Origin: Nitrospira sp.
GTDB taxonomy: Bacteria; Nitrospirota; Nitrospiria; Nitrospirales; Nitrospiraceae
Direction of reading: 5' to 3'
Length of the DNA: 11,392 nt
Assembly (NCBI GenBank): GCA_015904075.1
Contig: JABMDH010000082.1
Span: forward strand, 19,418-30,809
The translations under genes were made by a program, and so were the position numbers. Below the pieces are notes generated by a model. It saw only the letters and a list, made by a program, of their open reading frames with translations, did no database searches and had not been told where the DNA came from. The first letter of the stretch is position 1; every line of letters begins with the position of its first letter. Positions 1,051 through 11,040 of this stretch are shown here, piece after piece.

Positions 1051-1114
1051 GTCTTTCTGGTCTGTCTGGTATCGGACAAGACAGACCAAAGAGACCGAAA
1101 AGACCAGATAGACG
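1051..1114. repeat. Nonamer tandem repeat forming a long inverted repeat
   Basis: On the plus strand four 9-nt units follow one another at 1079-1114: AGACAGACC, AAAGAGACC, GAAAAGACC, AGATAGACG. The preceding sequence 1051-1067 is the approximate reverse complement of the first part: TGGTCTGTCT (1058-1067) pairs perfectly with AGACAGACCA (1079-1088). The stem extends to 17 positions (1051-1067 with 1079-1095) with one mismatch and one possible G-U pair, and the loop is 11 nt (1068-1078). It lies in the 130-nt gap between the Rieske gene and the next gene. No T-run follows on the minus strand, so it is not a standard terminator. It could still act on mRNA stability or attenuation, which is inference. 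Confidence 0.75.
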
Positions 1115-1130
1115 AGCGATGCCTTACGAA

Positions 1131-1436
1131 CTACAGCAGCGCCTTGACATCGCTGCCCTCGACCTTCACCTGATAGACCGCCACTTTGCTCGATGGATTG
1201 TTCACACAGGCGCCGGTCGCCACATTGAATTGCCATCCATGCCAAGGACAGGTCACCACGCCCCCCTCAACCTCTCCTTCCCCAAGCGGCCCGCCGCGAT
1301 GGCAACAGGTATTGTCGACCACGTGAAACGCCCCGTCTACATTGAACACTGCCACGGTCTTGCCGTTCACTTCGGCAACCATGCCGTGGCCCGATTGCAC
1401 ATCGGCTGTTCCTACTACCCGCACAAACTCCGCCAT
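1131..1436 (-). CDS. Rieske-type [2Fe-2S] ferredoxin
   Basis: A 101-aa soluble single-domain Rieske protein of the kind that serves as an electron carrier for oxygenases or as a small redox partner. The two cluster-binding boxes are plain: C44-C-H46-RGGPL and C63-PWH66-GWQF, giving two Cys and two His ligands (C44, H46, C63, H66). There is no membrane anchor or signal peptide, so it acts in the cytoplasm, unlike bc1-type Rieske subunits. The ATG at 1434-1436 has a strong GGGGGAGG about 6 nt upstream. It starts 23 nt after mrp and is surely in the same operon. No oxygenase is visible nearby, so its electron acceptor is unknown. Similarity to NirD (the small subunit of nitrite reductase) is general to the fold, and no NirB is present here. 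Confidence 0.92.
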   Translation of the reverse strand: MAEFVRVVGTADVQSGHGMVAEVNGKTVAVFNVDGAFHVVDNTCCHRGGPLGEGEVEGGVVTCPWHGWQFNVATGACVNNPSSKVAVYQVKVEGSDVKALL

Positions 1437-1459
1437 GACCGTCCTCCCCCTCGCGTTGA

Positions 1460-2335
1460 TCAGTTCGTCGTAAACGGCTGCTTGATTTTCTTGAGCAAAC
1501 TGTCGATGGACGACCCGCTCTTTTCGGCTCCACCGACTGCGCCCATGACCTTCTTCGCGAGCTCCCTGAAAGCCGCAGCTTGAGGGGACGACGGATCGGC
1601 CGTGACGATTGGATGCCCGCTATCGCCGCCGTCGCGGATGGCCGGATCGATCGGAATGCGCCCGAGAAAGGGCACCCCAAGTTTTTCAGCCGCCCGCTCT
1701 CCGCCCCCGTGCGAAAAAATATCCGTGCGCTCGCCGCAATGCCCGCATTGAAAGAAACTCATATTTTCAATGATGCCCAACAGCGGTACATTCACCTTCT
1801 GAAACATAGCCATGCCCTTGCGCACATCATAGAGCGCCACTTCCTGCGGCGTCGTCACGGTAATCGCGCCGGCCAACGGCACCATTTGAGAAAGTGACAG
1901 CTGCACATCGCCGGTGCCGGGCGGCAAATCGATCAGCAGATAATCCAGCTCGCCCCACAGCACATCCCGAAAAAACGCCTGGAGATATTGATGGACCATC
2001 GGACCGCGCCAGACAAGCGGGGCCTCTTCCGGCACCAGAAATGCCATCGAGATGAGTTTGACCCCGTAATTTTCAACCGGCACGATTTTGCCGTCCTGCT
2101 GTTCCGGTCCCTTGGTACTCCCCATCATCATCGGAATATTGGGTCCATACAGATCGGCATCCAACAGTCCCACCTTCGCACCGGCCAGTGCAAGTGCGCA
2201 GGCGAGATTCGATGCGACGGTCGATTTACCGACACCGCCTTTGCCGCTGCTGACTGCGATCACATGCTTCACGTCCGGAATCAAATTAGCGGTCCCCTGC
2301 GGCGATGGTCCGCCGTGGGTATGTTCTTCTGCCAT
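1460..2335 (-). CDS. mrp: Mrp/ApbC/NBP35-family Fe-S cluster carrier ATPase
   Basis: A 291-aa P-loop ATPase that binds and delivers Fe-S clusters to target apoproteins in the cytoplasm. Visible features: the deviant Walker A GKGGVGKST (residues 31-39) with its signature lysine, LLDADLYGPNIP (about 57-68), the Walker B-like LLIDLPPGTGD (about 133-143), and the cluster-bridging C197-G-H-C200 pair, in ENMSFFQCGHC. It lacks the N-terminal MIP18/DUF59 domain found in longer Mrp proteins, having only about 23 residues before the ATPase core. The ATG at 2333-2335 has GGGAGGA about 9 nt upstream. It is the first gene of a minus-strand run leading to a Rieske ferredoxin and lipA, which fits a role in loading clusters onto those proteins (inference). 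Confidence 0.95.
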   Translation of the reverse strand: MAEEHTHGGPSPQGTANLIPDVKHVIAVSSGKGGVGKSTVASNLACALALAGAKVGLLDADLYGPNIPMMMGSTKGPEQQDGKIVPVENYGVKLISMAFLVPEEAPLVWRGPMVHQYLQAFFRDVLWGELDYLLIDLPPGTGDVQLSLSQMVPLAGAITVTTPQEVALYDVRKGMAMFQKVNVPLLGIIENMSFFQCGHCGERTDIFSHGGGERAAEKLGVPFLGRIPIDPAIRDGGDSGHPIVTADPSSPQAAAFRELAKKVMGAVGGAEKSGSSIDSLLKKIKQPFTTN

Positions 2336-2359
2336 AACCTATTCCTCCCTCGCTCCCGC

Positions 2360-9203: not shown

Positions 9204-9273
9204 AGTACGTCAGCTCATCTTATCGGAATGAACAGAATATTGTTTCTCAGCAGAATAGGCTCACATCCGCATA

Positions 9274-9921
9274 CTATTTCCCAGCCCGTTCCAGCGCCTT
9301 TTGTTTCACGATACGAAAGTGGGCTTCCAACTCCTGCCGCATGACGACGGCAATCAACCAATCAGGGGTCAGCGAATCGACTTCGACGGTCAGTTCAAAA
9401 TCGGCGCTGGTCTGATTGCCTTCCCCGGCAGGCCGAAGCTTCCAGACGCGGCGATACCGCTTAAAGTCACCGCCTTTGAGATCCGTTACGAGGCCGCCAT
9501 CCGGCAACATCCGCGAGTCTGTAACCAGCCGATGCTCACCGGGCATCAGCCCATGCGTGATACGAAGATCAACCGTGGCAACCCCTTCATGAATCTTGAG
9601 ATCGGCCACTCGCATGTGTACTTCAAACAGTTCCGGCCAACGTGGATAGTCCGCCAAAAGCGACTGCATAACTTCTGGCTTTGCCGGAAACAGCACACGC
9701 GCCGTCGCACGAACTCCCCCGCCCGACTCCACCTTGACGTCCAGGCTCTCCGCATCCGATGCCGCCCGGACATCCCACGACCACAGCGTCGTAACGAGGG
9801 CACTCACGAACACGAGTAACAAGATACGGGGCACTGCGGCCGTAGCCCTACTCACGAATGGAATCAATGGTGGCACATGACTCCGTCGCACAACCGCCGC
9901 TCCGCCCGTCGAACAGTACAT
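9274..9921 (-). CDS. SRPBCC (cyclase/START-like) protein with N-terminal signal or anchor
   Basis: An N-terminal hydrophobic stretch, PRILLLVFVSALVTTLWSW, ends in DVRAAS, fitting a signal peptide or anchor. A SRPBCC/polyketide-cyclase-like domain of about 150 residues follows: GVRATARVLFPAKPEVMQSLLADYPRWPELFEVHMRV is the typical opening helix-strand pattern (Y-P-x-W-x-E-L), and the long C-terminal helix is seen in DWLIAVVMRQELEAHFRIVKQKALE. Such domains bind hydrophobic ligands; the ligand here is unknown. The start is uncertain. ATG at 9921 is used, GTG at 9876 with GGAG 4 nt upstream still keeps the signal, and the frame is open to 9978. It is probably exported to the periplasm. It is transcribed away from queG and precedes thiE by 70 nt. 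Confidence 0.8.
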   Translation of the reverse strand: MYCSTGGAAVVRRSHVPPLIPFVSRATAAVPRILLLVFVSALVTTLWSWDVRAASDAESLDVKVESGGGVRATARVLFPAKPEVMQSLLADYPRWPELFEVHMRVADLKIHEGVATVDLRITHGLMPGEHRLVTDSRMLPDGGLVTDLKGGDFKRYRRVWKLRPAGEGNQTSADFELTVEVDSLTPDWLIAVVMRQELEAHFRIVKQKALERAGK

Positions 9922-10010
9922 TGGATTAGATCGCTCTGAATGAGGCTGGATTCTACGCGGACCACTCGGTGGCCGCAAGAAAGGAGACTATGCTACCTTG
10001 ACGTTCACCT

Positions 10011-10976
10011 ATGCCGCCTATGTCCCTCTCTGAATCGATCAGACAAGAAGCCCGCGCGTTGGGATTCGACGCCGTCGGTATCGCCCGAGTCGACGCCCCA
10101 GCCCCACCCCTCCAGCACGGGCTCTTCACCAGACTGACCCACTGGCTCACCCGCGGCTTCCACGGCGCGATGGCCTGGATGGAACGGACACCAGAGAAAC
10201 GAACTGATCCTAGGCTCGTCCTTCCGGGATGCCGATCGATCATTTCGGTTGGAGTCAACTACTTGACCGACCATCGCCCCGATGAACGGCCCGGCCACGG
10301 CCGCATCGCGCGGTATGCCTGGGGCAGGGACTACCACAAGGTGCTCAGCGATCGGCTGAAGCAACTTGAACAGCGTCTGCACATCTTGGCTCCTGATGCC
10401 AAGACCCTGGTCTATGTCGATACCGGTCCTATAATGGAGAAAGCCTGGGCGGAACGGGCGGGATTGGGATGGATCGGCAAACACTCCAACCTGGTGTCAG
10501 CCGAACACGGCTCCTGGCTCCTGCTGGGAGAAATCCTCACGACGTTAGATCTGGAACCGGACGAGCCGGCCACCGATCTCTGCGGCAGCTGCACCCTCTG
10601 CATTCAAGCCTGCCCGACCAAGGCCATCGTCGAACCCTATGTGGTTGATGCCACCCGCTGTATTTCGTATCTAACGATCGAACTGCGTGGAGACCACAGC
10701 ACCATCCCGGATGAATTACAGTCGGGCATGGGTAACAAAATCTTTGGATGCGACGATTGTCTCGATGTCTGTCCATTTAATTTGCGAGCTGAGCCGAGCC
10801 AGGAACCGGCCTTCCAACCGAGAGCGGTGACCCTCGCCCCACGATTGGATGATTTGACGAAGCTCGACGAACCGGCCTTTGCAACTCTGTTTCAAGGTAG
10901 CCCGATCAAACGCGCCAAATACTCGGGCCTTTTGCGTAACGTCTCAATCGCACAGAAGAATCAGCAGCGCTCCTAA
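10011..10976 (+). CDS. queG: Epoxyqueuosine reductase
   Basis: QueG reduces epoxyqueuosine to queuosine in the wobble position of tRNAs with GUN anticodons, using cobalamin and two [4Fe-4S] clusters. Key features are the DUF1730-type N-terminal half, the catalytic Asp in YVDTGPIMEKAWAERAGLGWIGKHSN (D137), the first Cys set C191, C194, C197, C201 in CGSCTLCIQACP, C217 in ATRCISY, and the second set C247, C250, C254 in CDDCLDVCP. The C-terminal GSPIKRAKYSGLLRNVSIA matches the family, but the usual LGN continuation is replaced by QKNQQRS and a stop, so no HEAT-like tail is present (321 aa). The start is ambiguous: ATG 10011 or ATG 10020 both lack an SD, while a strong AAGGAG lies at 9981-9986 (see findings). 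Confidence 0.94.
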   Translation: MPPMSLSESIRQEARALGFDAVGIARVDAPAPPLQHGLFTRLTHWLTRGFHGAMAWMERTPEKRTDPRLVLPGCRSIISVGVNYLTDHRPDERPGHGRIARYAWGRDYHKVLSDRLKQLEQRLHILAPDAKTLVYVDTGPIMEKAWAERAGLGWIGKHSNLVSAEHGSWLLLGEILTTLDLEPDEPATDLCGSCTLCIQACPTKAIVEPYVVDATRCISYLTIELRGDHSTIPDELQSGMGNKIFGCDDCLDVCPFNLRAEPSQEPAFQPRAVTLAPRLDDLTKLDEPAFATLFQGSPIKRAKYSGLLRNVSIAQKNQQRS

Positions 10977-10978
10977 CC

Positions 10979-11040
10979 CCTCACCCTTTACCCCTCACAC
11001 CCTACCTCCCCCCTTCCCTTCCCACCATGGGAAGAGTAGG
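10979..11040. repeat. Heptamer array and hairpin after queG
   Basis: Pyrimidine-rich 7-nt units run from 10979 to 11006: CCTCACC, CTTTACC, CCTCACA, CCCTACC. Downstream, CTTCCCA (11018-11024) and TGGGAAG (11028-11034) form a perfect 7-bp stem with a 3-nt loop, and CCTAC (11001-11005) can pair with GTAGG (11036-11040) outside it. No T-run follows, so a classic intrinsic terminator for queG is not supported, although the hairpin lies in the right place for one. Confidence 0.6.

Follow-up and report, generated by a model that had tools for sequence, protein, structure and literature searches.

Intergenic arrays of 7- and 9-nt units in Nitrospira, often paired as inverted arms

Introduction

The DNA considered here (hereafter the window) is a stretch of 11,392 nt from Nitrospira (contig JABMDH010000082.1, positions 19,418 to 30,809), whose PutA is 92% identical to PutA of the metagenome-assembled genome (MAG) bin.260 (locus L001 of genome G001). 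According to a Pfam scan of ten window proteins, one of which gave no match, it encodes a Rieske protein, an Mrp/NUBPL-type ATPase, PutA, a DUF3108-like protein, an SDR, an AAA_26 protein that we read as BioD, a TMP-TENI protein (ThiE), a polyketide-cyclase/START-like protein and QueG. Between these genes lie short arrays of degenerate 7-nt and, at one site, 9-nt units (Table 1), most of which face a second, inverted array across a spacer. Cyanobacterial short tandemly repeated repetitive (STRR) sequences are tandem heptamer repeats, and the arrays of Nitrospira resemble them as tandem heptamers in intergenic DNA. Among the titles and abstracts listed for Nitrospira repeats, heptamer repeats and STRR, none gave an account of the Nitrospira arrays; in the available part of RepRanger (PMC12306157) N. 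moscoviensis is present as a table row.

Results

A preliminary description of this DNA, made from its letters only, reported intergenic arrays with a period of 7 or 9 nt, and these proved to be real. In the 1444 noncoding bases of the window (gene limits were set by hand from the list of open reading frames) seven lag-7 sites, defined by at least 4 of 7 constant columns over three units, were registered against a shuffle mean of 0.34, and none of 300 shuffles reached seven. At lag 9 (at least 5 of 9 columns) three sites were found against 0.07 in shuffled sequence (0/300). The observed and shuffled values for other lags were 4/1.86 at lag 5, 0/0.21 at lag 6, 2/0.57 at lag 8, 0/0.11 at lag 10 and 2/0.14 at lag 11 (6/300 shuffles). 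Tandem Repeats Finder (TRF) lists most of the arms; inside the window genes it also lists period 7 (10509-10523) and period 9 (8569-8586) with similarly low scores.

Table 1. Arms and arrays of iterated units found between the genes of the window
Position	Strand	Feature	Units and surroundings	Constant columns	TRF
1030..1070	+	Period-9 palindrome, left arm	units around GTCTGTCTG / TCTGGTCTG		1051-1070 (period 9)
1079..1115	+	Period-9 palindrome, right inverted arm	units AGACCAAAG/AGACCGAAA	6/9 over three units	1083-1106 (period 9)
2731..2746	+	GCNNATR element, left arm	two units; adjoins truncated putA duplicate
2798..2820	+	GCNNATR element, right arm	GCYATNN units, one mismatched, then TCTTT and CACGAGATACG
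6814..6842	+	Outer-type heptad palindrome, left arm	CGTGAAG-CGTATCT-CGTGAAG-CGTGAAG		6828-6842 (period 7)
6877..6904	+	Outer-type heptad palindrome, right arm	GCGAGATACGCG..., inverted to the 6814 arm (from sequence and fold)
7733..7759	+	GCNNATR element, AAGA border and left arm	three units; 1 nt after SDR stop (TAG 7729-7731)	6/7 (arm from 7741)	7741-7759 (period 7)
7828..7868	+	GCNNATR element, right arm and TCTT border	five GCYATNN-type units		7835-7865 (period 7)
10972..11008	+	Period-7 array	CCTNACC; overlaps queG stop (TAA 10974-10976)	5/7	10976-11006 (period 14, 2x7)

Every locus had been credited with a second arm inverted relative to the first. Such arms are clear at 1030-1115, 7737-7868 and 6814-6904. 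For the array at 10972-11008 no heptamer arm in inverted orientation was found; the one fold-back nearby is a short hairpin beyond the array, CCCTTCCC/GGGAAG. At 2729-2862 the left arm holds two units only, TRF lists no period-7 array and the RNA fold shows no excess stability over shuffles (z +0.33); the nhmmer profile of the GCNNATR family matches 2728-2858 at 92.8 bits. For 6804-6915, where three to four consecutive heptamers had been noted, the inverted arms (GCGTATCTCG/CGAGATACGC) and the TRF array were confirmed, but at most 3 of 7 columns are constant over three units and the fold is only slightly better than shuffled (z −1.42). Predicted folding is strong for the period-9 palindrome (1010-1120, z −5.94, 0 of 200 shuffles equal or better) and reaches z −2.97 at 7737-7868 and −1.50 at 10972-11008. 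The statement that the unit differs from site to site holds only in part, since GCNATNA (2731-2820) and ATGGCNA/GCTATCA (7737-7868) represent one family, GCNNATR / GCYATNN. Next to the 2731-2820 element, part of the 5' end of putA and of the DNA preceding it occurs twice in tandem (2516-2730 and about 2897-3111). The first of these copies breaks off where the element starts; L001 and L005 are single-copy.

Genome-wide statistics were obtained from 800 of the ~3500 kb of G001, the close relative mentioned above, with 148.5 kb of noncoding DNA in this piece. Occurrence of the same trinucleotide at positions i, i+k and i+2k was counted and compared with ten dinucleotide shuffles. At k=7 this gave 357 cases against a mean of 43.0 (maximum 54), that is an approximately 8-fold excess; k=9 gave 166 against 43.9 and k=14 gave 116 against 43. 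Lags 8 and 12 were raised less (86 and 74), and lags 4, 5, 10, 11, 13 and 15 stayed close to the shuffle level. Requiring five or more constant columns out of seven over three units yielded 81 arrays (76 merged), while a simple composition model predicts ~3; at k=9 (at least 5 of 9 columns) there were 53 against ~17, and a comparable excess was absent from the same column-based search at k = 5, 6, 8, 10, 11 and 12. Shuffled sequence thus fell below the observed density and the relative's genome supplied many more examples, two outcomes by which the preliminary description proposed to judge its arrays. In 33 kb of noncoding DNA of E. coli K-12 the period-7 excess was absent (13 vs 10). Nitrospira UBC2 gave 70 cases at lag 7, 43 at lag 9 and 16-34 at the other lags between 4 and 12; it has only one match to three successive GCYATNN units, so that the period is carried there by other units. 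The lag counts of genome G003 exclude masked N and were made without new shuffles.

The best-sampled family has the layout AAGA-GC(NNATRGC)n - spacer - (GCYATNN)nGC-TCTT, with 2-4 units per arm and spacers from 17 to about 140 nt. In the profile obtained by an iterative search, in which the unit was not forced, the letters G, C, A and T carry 1.28-1.96 bits each, the R/Y letter 0.64-1.08 and the two free letters 0.03-0.74; the spacer mostly remains below 1 bit, and some positions of the outer flanks are also high. Three successive GCYATNN units were matched 95 times in G001 (0 for the reversed control) and were found in 70 of 198 genomes of the phylum (one control match overall). Four copies have a 63-nt arm offset in common, and their spacers are near-identical. 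Interiors of arm pairs recurred within the 800 kb in 6 of 18 GCNNATR cases and in 1 of 11 others, the latter including overlapping pairs and one nonamer site (controls 0, 2 and 1 of 29); outer flanks recurred in 13 of 40. Palindromes may also be nested, with CGTGAAG/CGTATCT outermost, GCNNATR within and, in a few, TGAGTTN innermost.

Inverted pairing is enriched far above chance. Neighbouring arrays of G001 lying within 200 nt were similar in inverted orientation in 36 of 89 cases (6.2% at random) and in direct orientation in 7 of 89 (6.5%), and the stricter arrays behaved likewise (6/13 inverted, 0/13 direct). Exclusion of the GCNNATR family left 17 inverted pairs of 53 against 5.4% and 5 direct ones of 53 against 5.3%. 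Arm order was estimated on 148 GCNNATR arms of at least two units, taken from the window, 78 PutA loci, the G001 piece (L001 was left out of the counts, being already inside it) and 20 stretches of seven other genomes picked for holding GCNNATR matches. Among 54 adjacent pairs within 220 nt, several of which are orthologous and hence not all independent, 44 had the left-right order, six were right-right, four left-left and none right-left. Covariation between the arms was not detected: in the hairpin register free letters matched with a frequency of 0.295, whereas swapped partners gave 0.338 and equalled or exceeded the observed value in 912 of 1000 shuffles; for the R/Y letter the two frequencies were 0.487 and 0.536 (44 pairs, 117 units; a weak effect could escape). 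A smaller test with 19 pairs agreed. As a structure kept by base pairing should show the opposite, the absence of covariation favours sequence recognition over pairing.

A further arrangement of arms was met in genome G197 (C23, locus L152, 2514-9420). Between 2514 and 8069 it has six GCNNATR arrays consisting of a right arm only, at intervals of 0.7 to 1.6 kb, and after them one left-right pair and two more right arms. This order is cassette-like, and the island carries small genes, partly toxin-antitoxin-like by eye. An autonomous element copy was sought in this cluster, which consists mostly of single-orientation arms, and no clear candidate emerged.

Comparison of orthologous gaps, suggested in the preliminary description, revealed both presence/absence of arrays and changes of the unit. 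In the gap between the SDR gene and bioD a period-7 array was registered in 19 of 47 genomes against a mean of 1.0 in three shuffles; the genomes are related, so the 19 cases are not independent, and the gaps of L018, L022 and L075 are below the 30-nt limit. Lags 5, 6, 8, 9, 10 and 11 gave no arrays among these 47 genomes. Grouped by eye, the units are GCNNATR in the window, L001, L003, L006, L007, L050, L073 and L077, ATGGNNN in L040, L041 and L047, CCATNAA in L004, AGCTNNC or GCTGANN in L005 and L023, and AAGTTNC-like in L017, L034 and L072; L028 and L039 look like noise. At least four unit sequences have therefore been used at one and the same gap with the 7-nt period kept. Two further features were observed here: in L031, L035, L036, L043, L045 and L064 the SDR stop is directly followed by a palindrome of another kind (GCAGGATGCTGAAAAAG...CTTTTTGAGCATCCTGC-like), and there is a CCCTTCGACATGCTCAGGGC-type insert within the left side of the GCNNATR element of L003 (from 9562).

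At other gaps lag-7 arrays were found in 4 of 47 genomes (tri-rieske, shuffle 0.7), 4 of 30 (mrp-putA, 1.3; lag 5 there 5 vs 1.7), 4 of 43 (duf-sdr, 2.7; lag 9 there 5 vs 1.0), 0 of 32 (thiE-start) and 3 of 3 (queG-rr). Ahead of the Rieske gene, a nonamer palindrome occupies the gap in the window and L001, and a heptamer-type palindrome does so in L002. The GCNNATR element upstream of putA, present in the window and L005, is absent from L001. When 20 contigs of genome G210, about 118 kb in all, were compared with the G001 piece, 4 of them aligned over more than 1 kb and six length differences of at least 50 nt were noticed. Two of these differences are array-linked: a GCNNATR element in one case and 79 nt from a nonamer palindrome in the other, both found only in G001.

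Units also form lineage "dialects". Three successive CCYYACS units occur 39 times in G001 and at most three times in each of 23 other genomes (control 2 overall); three TCTGGTY-NN units occur 23 times in G169, 8 in G155, 7 in G079 and once in G197, and are absent from 20 other genomes including G001 (control 5 matches). Within arrays, too, the unit drifts and the 7-nt register is kept, for example in G001 C1:71419-71490. In a single array of G001 (C2 472436-472545) we noted the successive units ACTCAGC, GACGCCT, CACGCCT and ACTTGCC at constant register. The preliminary description had concluded from constant period and changing sequence that a common process, and not one copied element, generated the arrays. 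This conclusion is partly supported by mostly unique spacers and by unit shifts within arrays and at orthologous gaps, but the GCNNATR family, with its fixed consensus, AAGAGC/GCTCTT borders and a third of spacers recurring, is also element-like.

Thirty GCNNATR elements lie between called genes, 20 of which are in co-directional, 6 in convergent and 4 in divergent gaps. Arrays with at least 4 of 7 constant columns in co-directional gaps were nearer to the upstream stop in 81 of 126 cases, as compared to 62.4 at random (maximum 82 of 500 draws), and 58 of the 126 were located within 50 nt of it (39.7 at random, maximum 56). For 59 stricter arrays the corresponding values were 38 against 28.9 (maximum 42) and 29 against 22.1 (maximum 35). 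The arrays possess a strand polarity as well. Within 30 nt behind a stop codon, read in the direction of the gene, 46 arrays were G-rich, 8 C-rich and 4 tied, as counted without a formal statistic; by family this makes 10/0/1 for GCNNATR and 36/8/3 for the others. Array-free windows behind stops gave 166 G-rich, 138 C-rich and 34 tied, and within 30 nt of the next start no such polarity was observed (8 G-rich and 9 C-rich arrays).

Discussion

Arrays of this general kind have precedents, which are compared here on the available parts of the respective reports. The preliminary description considered the paired inverted layout unusual, which is not supported: it is already known from Xanthomonas (Rehm et al. 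2015, PMC4692102) and Geobacter metallireducens (Aklujkar et al. 2009, PMC2700814). Two Xanthomonas hold 70 and 75 convergent inverted heptamer pairs, and their GGGAATC / (GGGANTN)n repeats are located on average 28 nt from the upstream open reading frame and 160 nt from the next one. Both systems combine near-fixed and free letters in a unit of 7 nt, and both have numerous copies between genes, convergent inverted pairs close together (in Nitrospira a minority of arrays) and a G-rich strand that is the sense strand near stops. They differ in that Xanthomonas uses one G-rich quadruplex-capable unit, whereas Nitrospira has several, most of those listed being without G-tracts. Nitrospira also has a class of 9-nt units, one family bordered by AAGAGC/GCTCTT and a gap at which the unit changes between orthologues. 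The Gmet_I1-I3 sites of Geobacter are paired on opposite strands, each with 3-5 tandem units of 7, 8 or 8-9 nt (GTTGCTYN; TCTCCGTS[Y]; MTYCTGA), and are annotated as "predicted global regulator binding sites", the function being predicted only (PMC2700814). Tandem short units on each strand and variable spacing are met in Nitrospira as well, but the phylum and the published consensus units are different.

Other systems share fewer features. REPINs (Bertels and Rainey 2011, PMC3116915) consist of two conserved inverted sites around a less conserved spacer, are extragenic and insert into or beside existing elements; Nitrospira has the same inverted pair around a spacer, but REPIN arms are single 16-mers and those of Nitrospira are iterated 7-mers, with no compensatory changes detected and no RAYT found in G001. 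The TAACTGA repeats of Beggiatoaceae (MacGregor 2015, PMC4679880) are likewise patchy intergenic heptamer arrays, of 2-6 units, but they are nearly all direct, lie mostly just upstream of starts and use one unit. Mrazek et al. (2007; as reported in PMC4679880) found heptanucleotide repeats with varied units over-abundant and proposed 7-nt polymerase slippage. Their repeats, as well as the cyanobacterial STRRs, are described as direct, while the arrays of Nitrospira are often paired in inverted orientation and show polarity. What is added here is the presence of several units and two periods, controlled tests of order, polarity and covariation, and the change of unit at a single orthologous gap.

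Based on these data one can assume, with a probability of about 0.5, that the arrays are REP-like (repetitive extragenic palindromic) paired recognition arrays growing by 7-nt slippage-like duplication near 3' ends. In each pair two arrays of 2-5 degenerate 7-mers or 9-mers stand opposite one another in intergenic DNA, separated by an unconstrained spacer and frequently close to a gene's 3' end; single arrays lacking a partner are common too. In the best-sampled family four positions of the unit are near-fixed, one is a purine or pyrimidine and two are free. Units may be added or changed when one period is duplicated in a slippage-like manner, leaving the 7-nt register in place and letting the sequence drift. 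The fixed letters would be kept by sequence recognition, most simply by a protein that binds DNA or RNA, or by a transposase-like factor responding to a pair of inverted arrays, and some copies may have spread as whole elements, most of them now being alike in arms only. Slippage by one period would explain the fixed step, the drifting letters and the changing unit number; inversion, arm order and polarity go beyond slippage and require either that inverted sites are recognised or that paired sites have spread. The position of the arrays fits a candidate role in 3'-end or intergenic transcript handling.

Several observations weigh against this interpretation. No protein recognising the arrays was identified. 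An inverted partner within 200 nt, enriched as it is, was found for only 68 of 185 arrays of G001 (12 of 76 stricter ones); arm-pair interiors recurred in only 7 of 29 cases in total, and preference for the upstream stop is modest. The columns of the GCNNATR profile are not independent, because it includes hits on both strands of near-palindromes. Lag 6 is raised in G001 as well (95). In N. defluvii period 7 is weak (26 vs 19) and is exceeded by lags 6, 8 and 12 (47/17, 37/18 and 39/19), which may be due to undetected genes or to repeats of another kind. At two candidate empty sites a clear target-site duplication was not seen, so that mobility rests on one presence/absence case at mrp-putA and two of the six G210 length differences. 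Genes of G001 were predicted with a rough home-made caller based on hexamer scores, and the sources are mostly MAGs; checked on the window, this caller overlooked the DUF gene and returned shortened versions of queG and the START-like gene.

Neutral polymerase slippage alone, when 7-nt duplications and deletions (the proposed polymerase contact length) pile up heptads of any sequence in unconstrained DNA, corresponds to the idea of Mrazek et al. mentioned above. It agrees with period 7 being common to unrelated units, with arrays such as C1:71419-71490 that drift yet hold register and with the prevalence of arrays without inverted partner. It does not predict, however, the excess of inverted partners, the left-right order, the G-rich polarity or the coexistence of two free letters with near-fixed ones; period 9 would need a second rule and noncoding DNA of E. 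coli lacks the excess, so we regard slippage on its own as unlikely. More can be said for mobile palindromes of the REPIN or miniature inverted-repeat transposable element (MITE) type, which a transposase would move by binding the subterminal repeats of either end. In their favour are copies of one genome whose spacers are identical or nearly so, AAGA/TCTT borders retained across species with differing spacers, presence/absence between relatives and palindromes nested in palindromes. Nevertheless, the Y1 transposase domain (RAYT, IS200) was not found in G001 despite its 95 array matches. For a broader comparison 24 of the 198 genomes were assigned by hand to high- or low-count groups from their array-match counts, the others, intermediates included, being unused, and G002 (12 matches) and G003 (one match) being placed in the low-count group. 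The domain was found in 6 of 11 high-count against 10 of 13 low-count genomes, with no match in G001, G155, G062, G079 and G197, all high-count, although MAGs may be incomplete. No transposase gene was seen between arms, though no systematic search was made, and a separate CCCGCATTATTCATGA-ended MITE is unassociated with the arrays (3 of 76 near it, 1.76 expected). Mobile palindromes as the whole explanation thus appear rather doubtful to us.

RNA hairpins selected for base pairing at 3' ends, either as mRNA stabilisers or terminator-like, would suit the location of arrays near stop codons and the strong folding of two window sites. Two other sites fold little better than shuffles, the fifth has no inverted arm, the free and R/Y positions do not covary within the sensitivity given above and an Rfam scan of the window found no family at gathering scores, all of which makes this possibility quite unlikely. 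The last alternative is the G-quadruplex, as proposed for the GGGAATC heptamers of Xanthomonas, where the period, inverted pairing and G-rich-sense polarity near stops are the same (PMC4692102, available part). In the unit lists of Nitrospira a GGGAATC-type unit was not met by inspection; only the GTGAGGGG dialect of G001 carries G-tracts, and the units GCNNATR, RGYRAGT, TGAGTTN and CGTGAAR have none. As these units lack them, quadruplexes do not explain the common architecture and are very improbable here.

Some narrower ideas were tried and dropped. Heptads could serve as stop codons in all three frames on both strands (7 mod 3 = 1), which is attractive since many units contain TGA; this was disfavoured informally, as right arms of the GCNNATR copies with the 63-nt offset, read inward, have few or no stops, and TGA/TCA are outside the ten leading lag-7 trinucleotides. 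A RAYT or IS200-type transposase as a requirement was abandoned for want of a Y1 domain match in G001. Reverse transcriptase showed no association either: it was matched in 3 of the 11 high-count genomes and in 8 of the 13 with low counts, where one match scored under the curated cut-off. Heptads as cargo of the CCCGCATTATTCATGA MITE were rejected on the figures given above, random placement yielding up to 5 arrays near a terminus in 200 draws. A MITE-like family of ~200 nt with inverted ends TAGCCCGCATTATTCATGA, separate from the arrays, was noted in G001 (C1:316226-316420, 421434-421649 and 568226-568419); it has 15 end matches in 800 kb, and a similar lone end lies upstream of putA in L001.

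Paired inverted heptamer arrays are known from scattered accounts in Xanthomonas and Geobacter, in which quadruplexes or unnamed regulators served as the explanation. In Nitrospira the architecture is kept and the letters are changed, once at the same orthologous gap, which speaks against quadruplexes and simple base pairing as general explanations. A bolder and distinctly doubtful generalization would be that Nitrospira and other bacteria possess a sequence-independent 7-nt (and 9-nt) ruler, that is a machinery or copying process reading inverted iterated pairs behind genes, whose specificity drifts fast to lineage dialects but whose spacing, inversion and polarity are conserved even at one orthologous gap. 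Two questions become testable in this way: what sets the step at 7 nt, and which factor recognises the arms that follow stop codons.

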